DNA of 64,000 bases from SAR324 cluster bacterium. Its GTDB lineage: Bacteria; SAR324; NAC60-12. The position numbers were made by a program, and so were the translations under genes. The notes beneath the pieces are model-generated. The model made no database searches and was not told the DNA's origin. It saw nothing but the letters and a program-made list of their open reading frames with translations. This document shows positions 8,723 to 53,266 of the stretch, in pieces (positions within the stretch are counted from its first letter, which is position 1; each line of letters starts with the position of its first letter). The stretch is from contig JAKUUI010000005.1 of NCBI GenBank assembly GCA_022448485.1, positions 1-64,000 on the forward strand, written 5' to 3'.

Positions 8723-10978
8723 GTGTTTGTGAAAACTAGAATGTCCAAGATAGCTAAATCTAAAATTGCAGCAGGTATTTACTGGCTGGAAGTTCCAGAG
8801 GCTGAATTATTCGTGCTCTGCGGATGTCCCGCGGACAGTGTCAAGCATTTGATGAAAGCCGGTAAGATCTCCAACATAGAAGAAGAAATCGATTTTTCAA
8901 AATCCGGATCTGATCAAACTCAACATACACATGGCACAGTAACAAATGAAACTGGGCCAAATGCCATTCTTCTTTCCGATTTGAGTGTACAAAATGGAGA
9001 CATTGCTAATTTAGCAGAGTTCCCAGTACTACAGATGCTCTACCGTCAGGGCATGCTTTTGCCTAATCACCCCAACAATACCGGAGCCAAACCACTCCTC
9101 ATAGGTCACAAAAACATGGTTAGCGCCCAAATGAATTACATTCACCGGGGCAACTATGGTTTGACAAGCCTGGAGGAAATCCTTGAGGCGGGGATTACTC
9201 GAGTGCAAGCAGAAGAAATGATGCGCATTAAACTCTTCTTTGCCTTTGGTGAAATTCATCCCAGTAGTGATCTGCTTGAAGCCAGAATCGTCGACCAAAA
9301 ACCTGTCGAAATCCTAAACGGAGTCTGGGTAGTCAGGAAAAACATTAACTGCTATGAGTTCCTTTATCAGGATGAACGTGTAGAAGTAGACTTGAACCTA
9401 GGAAAAAACGAAAGCTATGAGACTCCTTATAAACTGGAAAACCACCACTTCAAAAGAGAATATTTTTCCATCGTACATACTGGTGAGGGGGATGGCTGGG
9501 ATATCAATCGGCCATGCATGGCCAGCGTTCTGAGTTTTCAAGGGAAAATTTTTTTAATCGATGTTGGTCCCAACATTGCGTACACCTTGAATGCAATAGG
9601 TGTCGATACCAATGAGGTGGAGGGTATTTTTCATACTCATGCACACGACGATCATTTTGCTGGACTGGCTTCTCTCATCAGAACAAATCACCGGATCAAG
9701 TATTACTCCACACCACTGGTTCGAGCATCTGTATCTAAAAAACTGTGCTCACTTTTATCAATCAAGGAAAATACCTTTAAAGATTATTTTGAAGTTTGCG
9801 ATTTGGAGTTTGATAAATGGAACAACATTAACGGACTGGAAGTTCAGCCTGTATTTTCTCCACATCCTGTTGAAACAAATATTCTGTTTTTCAGAACTCT
9901 GTGGGAAAACGGTTATTCAACATACGCCCATTTAGCAGACGTGGCATCTCATGATGTTTTGAAAAAGATGGTTGAAGAAGATAAGAAAATGCCTGGCATC
10001 AGCAAAAAGCTAATGAAAAAAGTATGGGGAGATTATCTCAGCCCTGTGCAGGTAAAGAAAATCGATATTGGCGGCGGAATTATTCACGGTAAGGCTAAAG
10101 ATTTTAAGGCTGATAAATCTGAAAAAATTATATTGGCTCACACCGCACACAAATTGACACAAGATGAAAAAATAATTGGTTGCGGTGTCACTTTTGGAAG
10201 TACGGATATGCTGATTGAAGGACATGAGGATTATGCCTTGGAGTTCGGAGGAGATTATTTGCGCGGATATTATCCAAAAGTAGAAGATAGTGAAATTCAC
10301 TTGCTGTTGAATTGTGAACGTGAGTCTGTCAGTGTTGGAACTATTTTGCTCAGAGATCAGGAAATTCCCGAATATGTCTGTTTGGTACTTACGGGCGTAG
10401 CAGAGTTGCTTTCTACGAAAGAAAAAACTAGTTATCAGTTATCCAGTGGATCACTAATTGGCGATCTCGCGGTTCTTTTTGGATTAAAAAGCAAGGGAAC
10501 ATATCGCGCATTGAGTTATATTGAAACTCTCAAAATTCCAGCTGTTTTGTTCAAAGAATTTGTAAATCGCAACCAGCTTATGAAACAGCTTCAAAAAACC
10601 CAGGAGACAATTGAATTCTTAGAGCAAACCTGGTTATTCGGCGAATCAATTTCATCTCCCATTCAAAGCCGGATTGCTCAGAGCATAACGGCCAAAAAAT
10701 ACAAGAAAGGTGAAAAAATAGAGTGCACCGGACTAATGCTGGTGAAAAAAGGGAAAGTGGAACTAACAAGCCGGAAAAGTGGAAAACAGGAGAGACAGCT
10801 TATGGTGAAAGAAGGGGATTTTTGGGGTGGTGAAAAAATGATCTCAAATGAAAATATAAGCGTGAATGCAAGAGCCAATACTTCAACAACAATCTATAAC
10901 ATCACTGATATTGAAATCCTTCAGCAGATTCCGATTGTTCGCTGGAAAATGCTTGAACAAACTGAAAAACGAGAATAA
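8723..10978 (+). CDS. metallo-beta-lactamase-fold protein with C-terminal cyclic-nucleotide-binding-like domain(s)
   Basis: MBL motif GIFHTHAHDDHFAGL; later ILLRDQEIPEYVCLVLTGVAELL...LSSGSLIGDLAVLFG and a second KGEKIECTGLMLVKKGKVEL...VKEGDFWGGE. Confidence 0.75.
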   Translation: MFVKTRMSKIAKSKIAAGIYWLEVPEAELFVLCGCPADSVKHLMKAGKISNIEEEIDFSKSGSDQTQHTHGTVTNETGPNAILLSDLSVQNGDIANLAEFPVLQMLYRQGMLLPNHPNNTGAKPLLIGHKNMVSAQMNYIHRGNYGLTSLEEILEAGITRVQAEEMMRIKLFFAFGEIHPSSDLLEARIVDQKPVEILNGVWVVRKNINCYEFLYQDERVEVDLNLGKNESYETPYKLENHHFKREYFSIVHTGEGDGWDINRPCMASVLSFQGKIFLIDVGPNIAYTLNAIGVDTNEVEGIFHTHAHDDHFAGLASLIRTNHRIKYYSTPLVRASVSKKLCSLLSIKENTFKDYFEVCDLEFDKWNNINGLEVQPVFSPHPVETNILFFRTLWENGYSTYAHLADVASHDVLKKMVEEDKKMPGISKKLMKKVWGDYLSPVQVKKIDIGGGIIHGKAKDFKADKSEKIILAHTAHKLTQDEKIIGCGVTFGSTDMLIEGHEDYALEFGGDYLRGYYPKVEDSEIHLLLNCERESVSVGTILLRDQEIPEYVCLVLTGVAELLSTKEKTSYQLSSGSLIGDLAVLFGLKSKGTYRALSYIETLKIPAVLFKEFVNRNQLMKQLQKTQETIEFLEQTWLFGESISSPIQSRIAQSITAKKYKKGEKIECTGLMLVKKGKVELTSRKSGKQERQLMVKEGDFWGGEKMISNENISVNARANTSTTIYNITDIEILQQIPIVRWKMLEQTEKRE

Positions 10979-14704: not shown

Positions 14705-15745
14705 TCAAACCTGACGAGAAACAATATAATCTGCAATATCTGCAAGAGATTGTCTAAGATCTGTTTCCGGGAAATTTTCTATACTGCGCTGAGCTTCAGC
14801 AGCATACTGTTTGGCGTGATTTATAGCGTAGGTGATGGAACCATAGCATTGCATCAAACCGATCACCTCATCAATTTGCGGTTTCTCAATTTCCGTTTGG
14901 GAGAGAATAGAATGCAACCGCTTCTTGTCAGAAACATTTACTTTTTCCAGCAAGTGACTCAAGGGGAGGGTGATTTTGCGTTCCTGTAAATCTCCGCCCA
15001 CCGGCTTTCCTGTTTTTACCTCATCCGAATAATCGAGAGCATCATCCACAATCTGAAAAGAAACTCCGATTGCCATTCCGTAATCATACAGCAGATTCAC
15101 AGATTTTCCTGAAGCACCGGCCAGTAAAGCCCCCGTTTTGATTGCAGTTGCAAAAAGACAGGCAGTTTTGTTGATGATGATTTCAAGATATTCTTCTTCG
15201 TTTACCGATTTGAATGAGCGTGTCAGCTGTAATAATTCACCTCGTGCCATTCTTGTCGTTGTATCTGACATCAGTTCCAAAACTTCCGGATTACGCAATT
15301 TGGTAAGACGGTAAAATGCCATAGCCAGAAGATAGTCTCCGGAAAGGACGCTGACCTCATTCCCCCATAACCTGCAAGCTGCTTGCTTGGCTCTTCGAGT
15401 TTCCGCTCCATCAACCACATCATCGTGCAAGAGAGTTGCTGTATGTAAATATTCAATAACTTGAGCTGCCTTCATAACTCGTTCATCCACCCCTCCAAAC
15501 ATCTTAGCACCTAAAAGTACCAGTGCAGGACGCAAGCGTTTTCCACCGGAATTTAGAATATGTTCAGCAACATTGTTGAGTAACGGAATATCGGTCTGTA
15601 CATCACGAAAAATCTGTGACTCCAGGCGCTTAATGTCAGAGGAAACTACTTTAAGAATTTGTTCTAAACTGACAGGCGGGGCAGTTTTTGGGTTTGCACC
15701 TGTTTTTATTGGTTGGTTCATGACAACTGACACATGATCAAGCAT
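14705..15745 (-). CDS. ispB: polyprenyl (octaprenyl-type) diphosphate synthase
   Basis: GGKRLRPALVLL, ATLLHDDVVDGAETRR, GVSFQIVDDALDY. Confidence 0.9.
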   Translation of the reverse strand: MLDHVSVVMNQPIKTGANPKTAPPVSLEQILKVVSSDIKRLESQIFRDVQTDIPLLNNVAEHILNSGGKRLRPALVLLGAKMFGGVDERVMKAAQVIEYLHTATLLHDDVVDGAETRRAKQAACRLWGNEVSVLSGDYLLAMAFYRLTKLRNPEVLELMSDTTTRMARGELLQLTRSFKSVNEEEYLEIIINKTACLFATAIKTGALLAGASGKSVNLLYDYGMAIGVSFQIVDDALDYSDEVKTGKPVGGDLQERKITLPLSHLLEKVNVSDKKRLHSILSQTEIEKPQIDEVIGLMQCYGSITYAINHAKQYAAEAQRSIENFPETDLRQSLADIADYIVSRQV

Positions 15746-18700
15746 CCACAGGCAGCATCACAAACAGCAAATCACCTTGGTTGACAGTGTTATGGTCCTC
15801 GGCAATTACTCGAGTAACTTTGTATTTTACTTTATCCGTGTATAATGAATCTCCATCCGAACTTTTGTAATCTGCCAATGCTAACTCGGTGAAAACTTTC
15901 ATCGATTCAAGCAGGCACAGAGTTTGATTAACATCAATGATTTGTCCTTCACTGACAAATGGCTCATCATCCTGAGAGGTTGCGCGATAAAACCCTCCCA
16001 TCTGAGGAGAAAGGACTTTCAACTCTTCCGAACCCTCCAGCATAATTGCTTTCTGGTCTAAAGAATTTTTTGTAGTTCCTGAGTCTTTCTTTGCTTCTCT
16101 CAAAAGTTTCTTCGTGTCAGCCTGTGCAAAAAAGTCTGTAAGATATAAAGTGCTGAAACCTCCCTTTTGAAAAGAAGCATCTCGCAAAATAGCACGATTC
16201 AAAGCCAGATTAGTAGAAACACCATGAATTTTCACTTGTTTTAAGTAATCAAGTAAACTATTGATGGCTCCCTTACGTGATTTTCCCCAACAGATAATTT
16301 GCGCAATAAGGCTATCGTAAAAAGGTGAGACTACAGAACCAGAAACAACAGATTGAATAACGCGCACATTTGCTTTTTCGGGGAAAAACACTTCAGTCAC
16401 ATGTCCCGGATCAGGAACAAATCGTAACTCTCCCTCATCGTCCAACTCAACTTTCTCAGCAATTATTCTTAACTCAATAGCATGACCGTTAAGTTTATAA
16501 TCCAACTCTCCAATGCTGTTTCCTTGAGTCACTTCAAACTGTTGGCGTACCAAATCCACTCCGGAAACCATTTCAGAAACCGGATGTTCAACTTGAAGCC
16601 GTGTATTCATTTCCATAAAATACACTTTATTTTCTTCAAGATCATAAATAAATTCGACTGTTCCTGCACCAATGTAATCAATTTCGTCAATCAATTTACC
16701 TGCAAAACTACAGACCTGTTCCCTGATTTTTTTTGGAATTCCAGAAGCAGTTTCCTCAATCAGTTTTTGGTAGTTGCGCTGAACAGAGCAATCACGAATG
16801 CCTAAAAATTTTGAATTTCCATGCATGTCCCTCACGATTTGGGCTTCAAGGTGGCGCATCGAGCCAATATATTTTTCCAAGTACAAATCTCCATTACCAA
16901 ATGCACTCAATGCTTCTTGTGACATTCGAGAGAAAGTGGACTGAAATCGCTTCACTTCACTGACCACCTCAATTCCTTTTCCTCCACCACCATGGGCTGC
17001 TTTAATCAGTACAGGGAAACCAATTTCTGAAGCAACTTCCATTGCATGCGACGGTTCCATTAAAGCACCCTCACTACCAGGAACAACTGGGATTCTTAAT
17101 TTTCTGGCTGTTGCAATTGCATTCGATTTGTTGCCCATTCTGTCCATATTCGCAACACGTGGACCAATAAAGTTGAAACCATGTTCCCGGCAAATACGAG
17201 CGTAATGCGGAGATTCGGACAAAAAACCAATCCCTGGATGAATAGCATCCACGTCCTCTTGCTCTGCAATCCTGATCACGCTCATTCCATTCAGATAACT
17301 TTCCTGCGGAGTATTCCCCCCAATGCAAACCAGACGATCTTTCTCTCGAAGCAACGTTGCCGGATAGCTTTCCATGTCCGGATCGGAAGCTACCAAAACC
17401 ACTTCCAAACCTCCATCTTGCGCACTGCGTACCAAGCGAACTGCCGTGCAACCACGTGCGTGAATCAGCACTCGCTTTATCTCGCCAGTGTGCAAATTTT
17501 CCTGTGTGGAATATATGTGTTCTTCGTCGCCCACAGACAATTGGTATTCACCGGACAATACTCGTGAAATGATCTCCTCTACAGTATGTTTTGCAATGGG
17601 AATTTTTGGATCAATTTCCTGTAGTTTTTCATCAATATCTGCGTCAAATGGATTTTTTACAAGACCATCCATTGTTCCAGGATTGGTTGAGAGATAATTG
17701 GATAAAGTGGAATGCGCCGGTAAGTGACTTTCCACAACCAGCTGACCAGCAAAGGGGATTTGTGATCCAGAAAAATAATAAGTACGAGCAAGCAAATGAG
17801 TCACAAAACTAGCTTGTGCACCTCCGGTACAATCTCGAAAACCAAAACACAACACCGGAAGATCCAAATCTTTTACAAAACGTGTAATTCGTTCATTTAT
17901 GATGGACATTGAAAATAATGAACCCCCGCCTTCTTTTGTCTGCATGCCTGCAGAAGAGATAAAAAAGATCATCGGTAATTTCAGACGCGCGCAGTCATCA
18001 AGCAGGCGGCAAACTTTTTCACAGCTTGCCATATCAAAAGAACCAGCTTGAAACTCTGCGTTACTGACCACCAATCCTACACGGTAAGTTGTTTTTTGTT
18101 TTTTAATTTTTGATTTTTTCCCTCTGACAGACTCTCCATTTTCTTCATGTGTGAATGTTGCCAGCCCAGTCACAACACCGCATGGAGTAACACCGTTCTC
18201 AAGTGCCAGCTCAATCGCATCTCTAAATCCTGGAAATTTCACTGGATTAGAAGTAATCCTATCAGCATGTAGTTCCTTAAAGTCTTTGAAATAATGTCCA
18301 ATAACTTTACTGGAGGTAATGACAGTACTTTTGTATTCCCGCAACAAATTATTAATCAGCAAATCCTTGTAAGATTGATCAAGACGATTCCAAAAATCTT
18401 TAATGCCAATGTTACGTGGAGTTATTTTTCCTTGAAATTTCCCTTTGCCCTGCTGGGCTGCATAGAGTGAAGGCAGCAATCCGGAAAAATAGTAGCGCAC
18501 TACCCCAAACAGCGGTGGACTCATACGGGGAAAAACAACCCTCTTCCACTCACTAATGGTTCCCAAAACTTCATCACAATCTTTGCGGTCAATAAAACTG
18601 GCCAGCCACTTGAAAAAGTGTGATCGTACTGAATTGCTATCTAGCTGCAAAGAGTTTTTTTCAAATTCTTGCATTGCTCCTTCAACAGTTTGCTCGAACA

Positions 18701-20321
18701 ACTGTTCCACCGATTTTTGGGAAATTTGATTTGTACCTTTCAGTTCGTTTGCAATAGTCGGGAGTACCTCAATTACTTGATCGTAGAGCAGGTCAAAAAG
18801 GAGAATATTCTGAAAATTTTCCTGAAAACTCTGATTTATTTCTGTGGTTCTTAGTAGATCCAGTAAATTAGGATTTCTGGGTGGATGGTCATGCAGTGTG
18901 GATTTACCTAGTTGTTCATAAAGCTCAATCATGTTTCCTGAAGAACTATTCTTCCAATAATTGTAAAGATGAAGTAGTATCTCCAGAGTTAAATCGTCTA
19001 TCGCTTTTTTATAATTTTCCAACGGATCACCGATGAAAAAGGCCACAAAACGGCCGCGTTCTTTCACACTGTCTTCACGAGAACTGACAAATTGCTCATA
19101 ACGTTTGTTCAGTTTTTCATGAAAGCGAACCTCAAGAGGCGTTTTGTACCAGTGTTCAAATTTTTCCAGACGTTCATTCTTCAACCGTTCCTGTAATTCC
19201 CCTACTGGAGTCCTGCGAGAACTCAAGCGGGCATAACTGTCGATAGAACGACTGACAATGCGCTGACGTAATGTCAGGTAACGCATAAAACGAAAAACAT
19301 CACCAAAAATATTCAGAGTACCAGTTGGAGAACGATCTGTTACCCGGTTGCTTTCAATTAAAAGCTTTGAGGGATTGAGATAGTGGTTGATACTGTCACG
19401 ATAGTGGTTGAAGAAAAAATCATTTTCGTTTAAAAATTTACATGAATTTTTCTCAGTAGTTTCAACTGCACTGATAATCGCATCTTTTATATTTTTCACC
19501 TGATGCGGCTGATCATAGCTATAATCGATGATGCCGTCAAAATACCCTTGAGACTGTAGCTCATAAGCAGAAACCCCAATGTGTTTTGCTGACTCCTGCC
19601 ATGAAAGATCATATTTACGTGCAATGTTGCTTAAACCTTTTGGATGAATAGTGTTGAAGACACCTTCTCGAACTGAAAGCAGGATATTGGCCGTTGCCAG
19701 TGGAATTGCTCCTCCACTGTAACCACCGCCAAAAACGATTCCAATAACTGGTAATTGCAAATTCGCCATCTCGCTAATTAAAAAGGAAATGCTATGTGAT
19801 TGATTGTCCAAGTTTGCTTCTGTGTCTGCGGCAGCTCCTGGAGTGTCCATGAAAGTCACCAGCGGGGTACTGTGAGAAGCAAAGAAACGTACCTTTTCTG
19901 CGGCCTTGCGATGGTGAATTGGAGACCAAACTCCATTTTGCATTTTGTGATTTTGAGCAATAAAACCCAGCCTGCGCATTTGTCCCGAAATTGACAATTC
20001 AATTTCTGCAGTATAAAGTGGTCCTTCAGTTTCATCAGCTATCATTTTTCCTCCTAATTGCTGGATTACTTCAGGAGCACTTGGCCGGTTTTTTGATTCA
20101 GAGGGACTCACCACCCGTTGAATATAGGAATCCACGTCAACTTTCTTTAATTTCTGAACTTCCTTCTCAATTTCTTCTACAGGCAGCAACCCCTTCACTT
20201 CTGATTCATCAAAAAAAGCAGAATGTTTCTTTCCACGCAGAAGAGACAGATCGTGTGACATTACTTCTGCAGCATGGAATGCTGATTTGAATTTGCTCTT
20301 CTTATTCTTGTTTAAACCCAT
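15738..20321 (-). CDS. single-chain acetyl-CoA/acyl-CoA carboxylase: CT(AccA-like)-helical linker-CT(AccD-like)-BC-BCCP
   Basis: AccA-like [22 protein letters not shown]...[13 protein letters not shown]; AccD-like [20 protein letters not shown]...[27 protein letters not shown]...[16 protein letters not shown]...[23 protein letters not shown]; biotinyl motif LLESMKVF. Confidence 0.9.
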   Translation of the reverse strand: [1527 protein letters not shown]

Positions 20322-20360: not shown

Positions 20361-22268
20361 TTACTGAAGAATCAAAGGAGACAATGCTTTGTCAAGAGAC
20401 GGCAACGAAATTGGAAACAGGAGCTGCTCTTCCAGCGAGTGCAATTGTGCGGCAGTCAGTGGATCGTTTTTTTGATGAAATTTTCGTAAAATTTGGATCT
20501 TATTTTCAGTTTTATTCAAACGCTGATGAGCAACTGCCAATCGATCCAGAAACAATAGTTGCATTGGAGGATTACCTTCCAGACGCTGGCTTTGCTCTAA
20601 AGTTGTTTCCAACAACTCCTGCACTTCAGCCCAATCTTCAGTCATAACTAACGATGCACTAAATCCATCTACCAAAAAGAGATGACCGGGAAACTGCTCC
20701 AGCCCATTACGGAGTATTTTTTGGGCTTCCTTCTCTTCCCCTTTATATCGCAACAAATCTCCAACTAAACGATGTGCATAGCCCTGACTTTCCTTACGCT
20801 CCAGGTAGGGCAAACTTATACGTAACGCCTCTTCAAAATTTCCTACACGACTCAAAGTCAAGGCGTGCAAATAAATAACTTCCCAGTTTCCTGAAAGTAC
20901 TTCCATAAGAGGCGTTGTCACTTCCAGAACTGAACGGTACTTGCCCTGCTGATAAAGTACTCTTGCCAATGAAAAATGTATCGAGGGCGAATCGTGAACT
21001 AAAATTGCCTGCCTCAGCAATTTTTCCGCTTCCGCAGAATTACCTCGGCTTTTGTGCAAATCTGCCTGCAGCTGCAAAGCCTCTGTATTCAATGGATGCT
21101 TTTCCTGAATCCGCCTCAATTGCTTTTCCACAACAGCCAATTCTCCTTTCATCAGTTGTCGACGCAAAAAAAGAAGCTGATATGAAGGGTTGGCTGAGTC
21201 CAATTCCAGTGCTCGACCGATGGCCATGTCTCCTTGCAGATAATCACCTTGTCGAAACAAAATCGAGGAGCGTAAATAATGTGCTCTGGCCAGGCTTGGA
21301 TTGATCTCCAGGCCGCGTGTTAACCAGATAAGAGAATCGTCTAAAAATCCCCTGCGCAACAATTGTACAGCCAAACCCATGATTGCATCCACGTTTTTTG
21401 GCTGCTTCTCAAGAATTGCTTTAAAGTGCAGACGGGCTTCTTCCTCCTGTTCCTGATGCAAAAGCAAATATGCCTCAATCAGTTGATCTTCAGGAGAAAG
21501 TAAATTTTTTGTTCTTAATTGAATCAGCAAGGCTTGTGCTTCAGGCCATTGCTGCTGAGCGAATTGAATCCGGAGTAACTCGCGTCTGATCGGTAAATAA
21601 TCCGGAAACTGATTTGTCATTTCTTTTGCCAGTGTTTGGGCATAATAATAACTGCCCTGAAGAGAATATGTCTGAACCCTCATTAACAACGCTTCTTTAT
21701 TATGTGGCTCCAGTTTCAGCAAAGTTTCAAGTGTCCGCAACGATCCTTCGAATTCCCTTTGGCGTAAATAAATTCGAGCCAAATGGTAGAGTGCTTCAAC
21801 ATAATGCCGATCTACTTGCAGTGCTTGCTCCAAGGATGAAATAGCTCGCCCATCATCGTCAATTTTCTCATAAGTTGCGGCTAATTTCAGATAAGCTGAA
21901 ACTCGTTCTGGAGAAATTCTAACTGCTGTCGCCAACTCTGTAATGGCATCACCATAACGTTCAAGTGCGAAAGCCAAGCTTCCCAGAAGTTCATAATAGC
22001 CAGCATTTAACGGATCATAACGCGTGGCTCGTCTTGCATGCTGTTCTGCGGAATCGTATTTTTTTATAAAGTAATAAGATCTGGCCAAATTGAAATGTGC
22101 TACTGGATTTTCCTCATCGCTATCAACAATCTTCTTCTGTTCATCAATGTAACCCAGCACATTATCTTGAGTGAGCAAAAATTGCTGAATATTCTTTCCG
22201 TTTTCAGAACATCCGGAAAAAAGAAAAAAGCTAAACAGAATTAATAATAAGGAATTAATCAGTCTCAC
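20361..22268 (-). CDS. TPR-repeat lipoprotein
   Basis: Lipobox LFSGCSE; many TPRs (NPVAHFNLARSYYFIKKYDSAEQHARRATRYDP etc.). Confidence 0.88.
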   Translation of the reverse strand: MRLINSLLLILFSFFLFSGCSENGKNIQQFLLTQDNVLGYIDEQKKIVDSDEENPVAHFNLARSYYFIKKYDSAEQHARRATRYDPLNAGYYELLGSLAFALERYGDAITELATAVRISPERVSAYLKLAATYEKIDDDGRAISSLEQALQVDRHYVEALYHLARIYLRQREFEGSLRTLETLLKLEPHNKEALLMRVQTYSLQGSYYYAQTLAKEMTNQFPDYLPIRRELLRIQFAQQQWPEAQALLIQLRTKNLLSPEDQLIEAYLLLHQEQEEEARLHFKAILEKQPKNVDAIMGLAVQLLRRGFLDDSLIWLTRGLEINPSLARAHYLRSSILFRQGDYLQGDMAIGRALELDSANPSYQLLFLRRQLMKGELAVVEKQLRRIQEKHPLNTEALQLQADLHKSRGNSAEAEKLLRQAILVHDSPSIHFSLARVLYQQGKYRSVLEVTTPLMEVLSGNWEVIYLHALTLSRVGNFEEALRISLPYLERKESQGYAHRLVGDLLRYKGEEKEAQKILRNGLEQFPGHLFLVDGFSASLVMTEDWAEVQELLETTLEQSQRLEGNPPMQLLFLDRLAVAHQRLNKTENKIQILRKFHQKNDPLTAAQLHSLEEQLLFPISLPSLDKALSPLILQ

Positions 22269-49176: not shown

Positions 49177-49408
49177 CGCGAACTGGGATTTTCCTGTTCT
49201 TTCTTCTCTCTCAGTCTTTTCAGCACTGACAGCATAACCAGCGCTGATTATATTCTAAAAAGCCTCAAAAACTCAACTCCGACTCTTACTGACTGTGTCA
49301 CTCAATACCGAAGAGTCCATAATTTTCATTCCGTTTTTTTCAAGGTTTTGTTATACAGGTAGATATCGATTCAATTTATTTGTTAAATCGCATTTGTTGA
49401 GTAATTTT

Positions 49409-52400
49409 ATGACGACTGATTCGAGCACCGATACATCTTCCCAACTCGACCAACAACTGAAGTTGCTTTGCTCGTTTAATATTCAGGTTCCATGTAATCC
49501 CCAGGGAGATTTTGCTGCCAGCGGATATAAAAAACTTTTGCAGTCCCTCAAAACAACTCAAATCAGTGATTCTTTGCGAGGTTCCTACCACGATGAACAT
49601 TTAAAAAAATGGAAAAAGTACGCACAAAGGGAATTTAATGAGATGGGACGTATAAACCGCTTACGTTTGGAAAGTCTAGTGGAACTTTCTGATGAAAAAA
49701 TGCACCGAACTATGTTTGAATGGATGCTACTTTTTGACATCAATCCGGAAGATTCTGCCCCGTTGGAGGTGCAGGGAAAGACTGGTAAGTTTGATGAAGA
49801 GGGCAAACCTATCTTGCATACTATGACATTCGATGTTTTTCAGAAAGGAGCAATTCACGGTATTGAAGGACTCGAAAGGTTTTTACCTTCTGCCTCAATA
49901 AAGGGAGAAGCAGGAATGGATGCATATCTCGAGGAAGAATTTGCTGGAACAGACCTTGTGAGTCATTTCAAACAAGGTTCAGGGCACCTGATCAAGGCCC
50001 TGACAACTATTGGAAGTTTAGGTGGAATCGGACATAAACCTGATTCTGATATGGATGCACAGATTATTATCAACACAAATCCGGAATTTAAATTTAACTG
50101 GAATGACGCAGATTATTTAGTAGCTCTGATTGCAAATGTGATTGAGTGTTTTTATGAAGACTATTACCGCAATGGATTGAAAGCTGAAGAACGAACAAAA
50201 ATATATAAAACGGCCATTCAAACTTTAAATGAGCAATGCAGTGGCAGCTTAAACGAGGAAGAACAGCGCGTGATTGAATTTATCTTTGCCAGTAGCTACC
50301 GCAAGGAATTACGTAAATTGATTCAAGAACATTTACAAAAACGGCCAGCAGAAGAACAACAACAATTCTTCCAGAAGTCTGTCATTAAAACTTTGAATAA
50401 ATTCCCTGATTGTGAGGAATTGCTGGAACCACTTAATAATTTTTTCTCTTTTATGAAAAAAGACGGTGGTAATTTACAGCGGGAGGCCTTCCCCTATTCT
50501 TTAAAGCAATTCAGTAAAGAAAAGATACTAAATTGGTTGGTGTACTATTACCGCACCACTTTTCTGGATGAGGCTGGTGCTCGTCAAGTTTTGTGGCGTT
50601 ATGCTGTCAGTAACAACCTGACACCGGAGTCTCTTCCGGAAGAGAAGCAGAATGAATGTTTTTTGAGCAGCTTGACAAATAATTCTCAGCTGTCACAACT
50701 CTTGACCGATTTTTTTGTGCACCTTTCCAGTAAGGTGGCTTTTGCTTCCCGGACTAAAGTTTCGAGGGCTATACAAACACTTAAACAGCATTTCAACTCC
50801 AAGAATCTAACTATTGAAGAAGGACTGGAAAAGAGGATTTTATCGAAACTTGAAATAAAATACAGTTCACGGACCGTTGAGATGATTGAAATTTTTTCAG
50901 ACGGACAAGCCAAAGATCTTGAAGCTGAAATTGAATATCCGTTACATCTCAAAATCCAGCAGGTCGAGGCTTACATGGCCAAAAAATATCCAATCGCCGA
51001 AATTCATTTTTTTGCTAACATTATGCGTAAGCAGCGCAGCGGGAAGCATACTCCTTTTTTGGTCTCTCCGGAAGGAAGCATGGCTTATGCACTGATGCTT
51101 AACGATTTTCTGCTCAACCCTGCGACAATGATCTGTGGCACTACACCAATGCCTTTTGATCTACCGAAAAATTTTAAAATCCTCTCTTCAATTGGAGTTT
51201 TTCCTGAAGCGGAATGGACTCTAAAACAGAACCTTGCTGCAGAATATATAAAAACATCTAAACCTGCAGAAAATGATGGTGGGGAAAGTCCGGTAAAAGT
51301 GGGTACGCCAGATAAGAAGCAAATACTGGATGAGGAAACAGAATCATTTGTCTTGGGGAAACTACCAAATTGGGGTGAAATAATCATTCCGCGTGAAATG
51401 TTTTTGGGACATGCAATTCCTATCTTTTTAAGGGAAAGTGAGAAAATCAGTCACAGGAACCTTCCCAAAGCTTTGCTCAATTGTTGGTGGCTGGAAATGA
51501 TTGTCTGCATTGATGAAGAAGATGAACTGCCTACAAGTTTGACCCGACTATTGTGGAATCCAGAGGGACGTTACTTTATTCGAGAAAATCGTAAAGGACC
51601 TCTGATTGATGCTATTATCAAGATGGAAGAAAACTACCCTGCTTTGCAGTTGGACCCGTGGTGGTTGAAATTTACTGAAATGCTAGTGCGTTTTGAAAGC
51701 TATGAACAAGAGGAGGAGGAACCGGATTTTGAACTCAACACGCTATCTGAAACTCAAAAAAATATTGTTTTTTGCTTTACACAACACATTCGAATTTCTG
51801 ATGTTATCAATTTTGGTGATGAAGGGAATCCGGTCCGGCTTGGCGAAAATGCAACTTGGCGCACCAGAGCCCTAGTTGATTTTTATAACATTTTCTTCTC
51901 TATACGTGAAGACCGTCGGGAACTAATTCGCTTTTCAGAGGGAAGGGATGATGCAGGCAACAAAATGGAAAAAATACTCAAGAATCTTTTTCTTGAGTCA
52001 ATGAACCGGGTTGAGAAAAAACTTTGCAATATTGGACATGGTCGCGCACTTAGGCAAATATCCAATCAGCTGGCACGCTTGAGTGAGGAAGGCTTTGATA
52101 AAGAGAAGGCAACCAACATTCTCAGTCCTCTACTGGACGTTGTCAACCAGCGTGTATCAATTGAAGACCGGAAGGTGTTGGTAAAACTTAAAAAGAAAAT
52201 TCCACTCAACAAAATTGAGCAAATGCAGGTCAAGATCGTATACGAGGAATTGCAAAAACTGAAAAGCGTGCAAGGCAACATTGTTGATTATTTTAATCAA
52301 TTCAATTTAAAAATGGAGGAAAGCTGGGTCAGAAAAACCATCACAAATGCAAAGGTAAAGATTGCAGGTAACCCCTTGGAAAATGTGATATTCAAATTCC

Positions 52401-53266
52401 ATTTTGAAAGAAACTTTGAAAGAAAACATTTTCAGGTGCCTTTGCCGATCTCAAAGTGTTTGAGTATTCCAAGATCGCGGATAAAAGTTGATTTTGTGCG
52501 GAAGAGTGGAAAGTGGCAATTCAGTTCAATGCTAAGCAGCAAAGAAACTGACGGCGGCGAAATTGGTGTGGAAACGGTAATACCGATGTTTGAGGCAAAC
52601 CTGGTGGAAGGCATAGCCCGCTGTACTTTTAGTGGTTATGTTGGTTTTGGCGGGGAAGATCTTTCGACCTTTGAAAAACCTGTGGCTCAGGTTCATAGTG
52701 ATGTCGCAATGAATTCAATATCAAGCGGTGCATTGTTCACATTGGCTGCTGAAATAAAAACTTTTTTCTCGCCATTTCACGTTTCATCGCGGGAACTAAT
52801 GGAAAACAAACATTACATCCGAGATATTTTGATGGTCTGCAATGTCAACAAACTCAATATAATTTCGGCAATAGTACGTGATAATCTTGGTGAGCAATTT
52901 GTGATTAATTATGATATTCGAAAAATTATAATCAAGAAGGTTCCACCCAAATTAAGAATTGGCGGAGATACAGCCCTGGCTGAGTTTTTTATGCGAATCA
53001 ACAGCAGGGAGTGCCGTATTTTGTTTATGCGACATTTATCAACCCTGAAAATTCCATTATTAGCCTCTAACCCGCCTCATTTGAAAATTTGGGTCAATGG
53101 TTCAAATTACAAATTCCCAATTTCCCCAAAATTTCAGCAGAAATATCTCAACGGGATTGCCAACAAACTCTGGCCTAATGATTCGATTGGTACAAGAGAA
53201 CATTTGCAGCCACATCCCTTGACTAGAACATTTGATGAGATCGGCAGAGCATCGCTATATGGCTAA
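49409..53266 (+). CDS. very large protein with class-I adenylate cyclase-like nucleotidyltransferase motif
   Basis: TTIGSLGGIGHKPDSDMDAQIIINT matches the GS-x(n)-SDxD pattern of the NTase fold; rest unrecognised. Confidence 0.6.
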   Translation: MTTDSSTDTSSQLDQQLKLLCSFNIQVPCNPQGDFAASGYKKLLQSLKTTQISDSLRGSYHDEHLKKWKKYAQREFNEMGRINRLRLESLVELSDEKMHRTMFEWMLLFDINPEDSAPLEVQGKTGKFDEEGKPILHTMTFDVFQKGAIHGIEGLERFLPSASIKGEAGMDAYLEEEFAGTDLVSHFKQGSGHLIKALTTIGSLGGIGHKPDSDMDAQIIINTNPEFKFNWNDADYLVALIANVIECFYEDYYRNGLKAEERTKIYKTAIQTLNEQCSGSLNEEEQRVIEFIFASSYRKELRKLIQEHLQKRPAEEQQQFFQKSVIKTLNKFPDCEELLEPLNNFFSFMKKDGGNLQREAFPYSLKQFSKEKILNWLVYYYRTTFLDEAGARQVLWRYAVSNNLTPESLPEEKQNECFLSSLTNNSQLSQLLTDFFVHLSSKVAFASRTKVSRAIQTLKQHFNSKNLTIEEGLEKRILSKLEIKYSSRTVEMIEIFSDGQAKDLEAEIEYPLHLKIQQVEAYMAKKYPIAEIHFFANIMRKQRSGKHTPFLVSPEGSMAYALMLNDFLLNPATMICGTTPMPFDLPKNFKILSSIGVFPEAEWTLKQNLAAEYIKTSKPAENDGGESPVKVGTPDKKQILDEETESFVLGKLPNWGEIIIPREMFLGHAIPIFLRESEKISHRNLPKALLNCWWLEMIVCIDEEDELPTSLTRLLWNPEGRYFIRENRKGPLIDAIIKMEENYPALQLDPWWLKFTEMLVRFESYEQEEEEPDFELNTLSETQKNIVFCFTQHIRISDVINFGDEGNPVRLGENATWRTRALVDFYNIFFSIREDRRELIRFSEGRDDAGNKMEKILKNLFLESMNRVEKKLCNIGHGRALRQISNQLARLSEEGFDKEKATNILSPLLDVVNQRVSIEDRKVLVKLKKKIPLNKIEQMQVKIVYEELQKLKSVQGNIVDYFNQFNLKMEESWVRKTITNAKVKIAGNPLENVIFKFHFERNFERKHFQVPLPISKCLSIPRSRIKVDFVRKSGKWQFSSMLSSKETDGGEIGVETVIPMFEANLVEGIARCTFSGYVGFGGEDLSTFEKPVAQVHSDVAMNSISSGALFTLAAEIKTFFSPFHVSSRELMENKHYIRDILMVCNVNKLNIISAIVRDNLGEQFVINYDIRKIIIKKVPPKLRIGGDTALAEFFMRINSRECRILFMRHLSTLKIPLLASNPPHLKIWVNGSNYKFPISPKFQQKYLNGIANKLWPNDSIGTREHLQPHPLTRTFDEIGRASLYG

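Follow-up and report, generated by a model that had tools for sequence, protein, structure and literature searches.

A predicted single-chain acetyl-CoA carboxylase of the AccS/AccADCB family in an order of the SAR324 phylum

The gene and its surroundings

The window analyzed here is a stretch of 64,000 nucleotides from a SAR324 MAG (2.7 Mb, 246 contigs, 87% complete). Its minus strand carries one intact frame of 1527 aa that ends in a stop codon, while the plus strand contains many stops over the same positions (Table 1). The uninterrupted frame described in the first-pass annotation was thereby confirmed, with the minus strand as its coding strand. The flanking genes lie on the same strand, and the upstream TPR-repeat gene is probably an operon partner of the carboxylase gene. 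Throughout the genus the order is TPR protein, acetyl-CoA carboxylase (ACC), polyprenyl synthase and response regulator; a TPR homologue adjoins the ACC gene in the whole genus and is found near it in some other genera of the same family (f1). This gene order is not kept in the second family with the fused gene (f2) or in the gammaproteobacterial loci.

Two further frames were seen on the plus strand of the window: a 1323-aa frame that begins with GTG and matches no Pfam family at E 1e-6 (49295-53266), and a 751-aa protein with a metallo-beta-lactamase fold match and a cyclic-nucleotide-binding domain (8723-10978).

Table 1. Features of the carboxylase locus, in window coordinates
Feature	Position	Strand	Basis
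accS/accADCB-type gene, single-chain acetyl-CoA carboxylase	15738..20321	-	complete frame; full-length match to PDB 9kkm_A, 1453 bits
CT-alpha (AccA-like) core, aa 123-294	19440..19955	-	Pfam ACCA; alignment with stand-alone AccA; motif positions
Central all-helical region, aa 300-640	18402..19424	-	AlphaFold2; profile match to 9kkm; Foldseek
CT-beta (AccD-like) region, aa 641-930, no zinc ribbon	17532..18401	-	S. aureus 2f9i_B profile match; AccD alignment
Biotin carboxylase, aa 947-1396	16134..17483	-	Pfam, NCBIfam; alignment with SAR324 AccC; motif positions
Biotinyl carrier domain (BCCP), aa 1431-1527	15741..16031	-	Biotin_lipoyl E 2.8e-5; TIGR00531 BCCP E 3.7e-11
Polyprenyl diphosphate synthase family gene	14705..15745	-	downstream neighbour, 8-bp overlap with ACC gene; not part of enzyme
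TPR-repeat protein gene	20361..22268	-	upstream, same strand, 39-bp gap; not part of enzyme

Domain order and catalytic motifs

Pfam and NCBIfam searches yielded the domain order CT-alpha (AccA-like), a helical region of about 340 aa, CT-beta (AccD-like), biotin carboxylase (BC) and biotinyl domain, which is the CT-CT-BC-BCCP arrangement with an intervening helical region that had been read from the sequence before. Pfam matches were ACCA (aa 123-294, E 3.7e-27), Biotin_carb_N (948-1059, E 2e-30), CPSase_L_D2 (1065-1271, E 1e-56), Biotin_carb_C (1283-1395, E 2e-25) and Biotin_lipoyl (1436-1480). The NCBIfam AccD model TIGR00515 matched weakly at aa 746-890 (E 6e-8); a profile of the CT-beta family matched S. 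aureus AccD (2f9i_B) with E 6e-20, and with this profile the assignment as AccD-like is firm at the level of sequence.

Ten representatives of the family were aligned with AccA, AccB, AccC and AccD from the SAR324 families that have the four-part enzyme. Compared with these stand-alone subunits, the BC retains GGGGKG, RDC...QR..QK..EE, [12 protein letters not shown] and E-x-R-x2-AE, CT-alpha retains DTPGA and G-x-G-x-SGGA, and CT-beta retains GG-x-QASF and FAG. In the window protein CT-alpha has DTPGA (aa 159) and GYSGGAIP (aa 200), CT-beta has [10 protein letters not shown] (aa 830) and FAGQ (aa 857), and the BC has HARGCTA (aa 954), GGGGKG (aa 1111) and RDCSVQRN (aa 1176). By motif alignment E1237 and E1245 correspond to E288 and E296 of the E. 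coli BC; E1245 aligns with position 1238 of the 1517-aa protein of a Shewanella-like locus (L088), in keeping with the mutation E1238A of the solved structure 9kkm. Lys1475 in LLESMKV is the predicted biotinylated residue, and the E-x-MK motif is invariant in all 34 full-length family members.

Two peculiarities had been pointed out by the first-pass annotation, the missing AccD zinc finger and a BC start that departs from ANRGEIA, and both are real. CxxC was found in none of the 34 full-length members, whereas the stand-alone AccD of the other SAR324 families carries the C-x2-C...C-x2-C ribbon, and the BC starts with HARG(C/A)TA throughout the family. Since both occur across the family, they are family traits and not specific to the SAR324 protein. 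HARGCTA as the mark of a dead BC was ruled out, since the whole family has it, including the structurally solved enzyme of Shewanella.

A lysine-rich insert ([15 protein letters not shown]) at about aa 728-745 of CT-beta has low pLDDT and was seen in the window protein alone among the members aligned. The dimer-interface residues R19, E23, F363 and R366 of the E. coli BC are altered at the corresponding positions in many members (loci compared include L058, L059, L082 and L083); in the BC alignment, for example, gammaproteobacterial members have Glu or Asp where E. coli has R366. Because of these alterations, the BC dimer of the fused family may differ from the classical one.

The protein belongs to the AccS/AccADCB family

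Among solved structures, one full-length match dominated the search: 9kkm_A (and likewise 9w4a), with 1453 bits across residues 15-1526 of the query and about 45% identity. This 1517-aa protein is annotated as 'Acetyl-CoA carboxylase multifunctional enzyme AccADCB'; the entry, released 2025-11-19, is a cryo-EM structure of the acetyl-CoA carboxyltransferase holoenzyme dimer of Shewanella oneidensis, mutant E1238A. The S. oneidensis multi-domain ACC was named AccS, and its domain order was reported to be unlike that of eukaryotic ACC (NAR 2024, PMC11602165). The two enzymes share domain order, length class (1517 versus 1527 aa), a homologous helical region, HARGCTA, the lack of a zinc ribbon and the catalytic motifs, and they come from different phyla, with 44-47% identity between SAR324 and gammaproteobacterial members. 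By sequence the SAR324 protein is thus a member of the AccS/AccADCB family, and because the match runs from end to end, the single-chain architecture is not novel but already known and structurally solved.

Other carboxylases are more distant. The heteromeric ACC (S. aureus 2f9i, E. coli 2f9y, SAR324 families f3 and f4) has homologous CT halves and BC with the same active-site motifs; however, it consists of four separate chains, has the AccD zinc ribbon and no helical linker, and its BC and CT are clearly divergent from those of the fused enzyme. Eukaryotic single-chain ACC likewise combines all activities and a large non-catalytic region in one chain, but its order, BC-BCCP-central domain-CT, is not that of the SAR324 protein. 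The CT of the Saccharopolyspora erythraea ACC and of the 5fif type is continuous and PCC/MCC-like. The S. erythraea ACC (PMC6491548) and the carboxylase of PDB entry 5fif are single-chain bacterial biotin carboxylases too; with the model of aa 1-945, the 5fif CT domain reached E 2e-5, compared to 1.4e-67 for 9kkm.

The central helical region is specific to the family

No Pfam family matched the helical region of the window protein. AlphaFold2, run on an alignment of 26 sequences, predicted it to be all-helical (pLDDT 82.6), in agreement with the first-pass annotation, which had named structure prediction as a check. A profile of the region, built from an alignment that included Shewanella-group sequences, matched residues 306-646 of 9kkm (E 4.8e-99), with no other convincing match; taken by itself, the window protein likewise aligns to 9kkm across this stretch. 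When the model of the region was searched with Foldseek, 9kkm ranked first (E 4e-13) and was the only match below E 0.001. Since both profile and Foldseek convincingly match 9kkm alone, the region is specific to the AccS/AccADCB family. The central domain of eukaryotic ACC and the BT domain of PCC were considered as counterparts and found no support in sequence or fold; the region matched no eukaryotic ACC in either respect.

The model of aa 1-945 superimposes on 9kkm with a TM score of 0.80 and 42% identity, followed by AccA and AccD structures solved by crystallography from S. aureus, E. coli and Chloroflexus. The helical region may hold the two CT halves together, and it may plausibly replace inter-subunit contacts.

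Role in the cell

An ACCA search of the genome recovered the fused gene alone, besides weak matches in other carboxyltransferases. Neither another AccA or AccD nor a separate accABCD set, the search for which had been suggested by the first-pass annotation, was found in this 87% complete MAG. Three other CT proteins match mmdA-type models and are PCC/MCC-like, and a BC-BCCP chain of 685 aa is the other true biotin carboxylase. That a separate set lies in the missing part of the genome is unlikely, since the same pattern is found in 35 genomes of f1 and f2. With no other AccA or AccD at hand and the other CTs being of propionyl or methylcrotonyl type, the fused protein is very probably the acetyl-CoA carboxylase of this bacterium, and homology and genome content together support the role originally proposed.

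Acyl-CoA carboxylases occur among the single-chain carboxylases of bacteria, and the Pfam Carboxyl_trans match is common to acyl-CoA carboxylase families, so that propionyl-, methylcrotonyl- or long-chain acyl-CoA might be the substrate instead. We consider this improbable: the CT halves are closer to bacterial AccA and AccD than to PCC or MCC, and the genome already encodes three CTs of the PCC/MCC type and no other ACC. The combination that would have spoken against an ACC, CT halves matching propionyl- or other acyl-CoA carboxylases best alongside a separate accABCD set, was not found. In addition, S. oneidensis AccS is required for normal growth: an accR mutant, in which AccS expression is low, has a growth defect that either accS or E. 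coli accABCD corrects (PMC11602165).

As an acetyl-CoA carboxylase, the protein would work in two steps. Using ATP and bicarbonate, the BC domain would carboxylate biotin on Lys1475 of the C-terminal carrier. The carrier would then swing to an active site built jointly from both CT halves, AccA-like and AccD-like, and hand the carboxyl group to acetyl-CoA, yielding malonyl-CoA for fatty-acid synthesis. As a family-specific scaffold, the helical region would join both CT halves in one chain. AccS of S. oneidensis is biotinylated, giving a streptavidin-reactive band near 170 kDa (PMC11602165), and by homology the SAR324 enzyme is likewise expected to be biotinylated, to use acetyl-CoA and to assemble as a dimer. 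A BirA-type biotin ligase was not found in the 87% complete genome; its single BPL_LplA_LipB match is lipoate-ligase-like (L084:1348-2163).

Distribution and origin of the fused gene

The published range of AccS comprises Shewanella and a few gammaproteobacterial genera (PMC11602165). Scanning genome contigs with one protein retrieved two full-length SAR324 relatives and ordinary BCs; the public records L024 and L025 are SAR324 cluster MAGs. Across the SAR324 phylum, 39 of 52 genomes contain the fused gene: 30 of 31 in f1, nine of ten in f2, and none of the eleven in f3 and f4. All carriers thus fall into one order, formed by f1 and f2, in which 39 of 41 genomes are positive. TIGR00515 (accD) scored above its cut-off, which is strict and passed by six of 14 control genomes, in none of 35 f1/f2 genomes (the window's included) and in all five f3/f4 genomes tested; the scores were at best 62 bits in f1/f2 versus 385-415 bits in f3/f4. 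The fused gene and stand-alone accD are therefore mutually exclusive in the SAR324 genomes tested. Neither gene was detected above cut-off in one f1 and one f2 relative (G020, G029), probably because these assemblies are incomplete.

With even sampling, the fused gene was present in 6 of 369 genomes from the class of Oceanobacter (Gammaproteobacteria) and in 6 of 399 from its phylum, Oceanobacter itself being the chosen centre and counted in both. It was found in none of 387 Alphaproteobacteria sampled from the class of a SAR116 genome, a weak result because this set lacks a positive control. A description of a fused ACC in SAR324 was not encountered in the literature searched, the coverage of which is incomplete. 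The known range of AccS is hereby extended to the SAR324 lineage.

In a tree of full-length proteins a branch separates the SAR324 sequences, among which f1 and f2 each group together, from the gammaproteobacterial sequences, including 9kkm. A tree of BC sequences unites all fused BCs (SH-aLRT 100), apart from AccC and the MCC-type BCs, including those of SAR324 itself. Together, the two trees support the view that the fusion arose once and was exchanged long ago between SAR324 and Gammaproteobacteria, in either direction. The first-pass annotation had instead suggested an independently assembled enzyme. The placement on separate sides of the tree and the 44-47% identity might be read as an origin separate from that of Shewanella, but the common order, the shared helical insert, HARGCTA, the loss of the zinc ribbon and the union of all fused BCs against stand-alone BCs make this very improbable, and together with the full-length match to 9kkm they contradict the earlier suggestion.

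An assembly artefact or pseudogene fusion has next to no probability, although the MAG is fragmented, one relative has a frame interrupted by stops (G005) and another record lacks a 1000-aa frame (L025). Many SAR324 genomes that were assembled independently carry intact frames of equal length and order, as do eleven of the gammaproteobacterial/Pseudomonadota genomes sampled and one enzyme of solved structure; neither chance nor the misassembly that the first-pass annotation had considered accounts for the 1527-aa frame. In G005, a genome of five contigs, the several stops in the fused gene (C1:431077-435635) probably reflect sequencing errors of a long-read assembly. The MAG G023 carries, besides a full-length fused gene, a second partial copy (C126:460-3015) that covers CT-beta to BCCP in an 859-aa frame with 67% identity, either a paralogue or contamination.

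Regulation and implications

In S. oneidensis, the LysR-type regulator gene accR lies beside accS in divergent orientation (PMC11602165), and the Shewanella-like control locus L088 has a divergent LysR gene about 125 bp from the ACC gene. No LysR gene or accR was found beside the ACC gene of the window, which is flanked instead by the TPR and polyprenyl synthase genes. Given this difference, regulation of the SAR324 gene probably departs from that in Shewanella; the divergent accR is a regulatory feature seen in Shewanella and no defining mark of the enzyme.

Taken together, it is likely that the whole SAR324 order swapped the four-part ACC for the AccS type, which would have passed between SAR324 and Gammaproteobacteria long ago in one direction or the other, that it runs this enzyme without AccR, and that the published range is too narrow. 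Acetyl-CoA carboxylase starts fatty-acid synthesis, and here it is one chain instead of four. Its non-eukaryotic order in a single-chain bacterial enzyme offers a handle on why and how carboxylases fuse. SAR324 would represent a deep, vertically inherited branch of the family, about 45% identical to the gammaproteobacterial one, and the phylum holds the contrast within itself, one order having the fused ACC and the remaining families the four-part ACC. The new element is this distribution, which points to an old, lineage-wide replacement in a SAR324 order without an adjacent accR.
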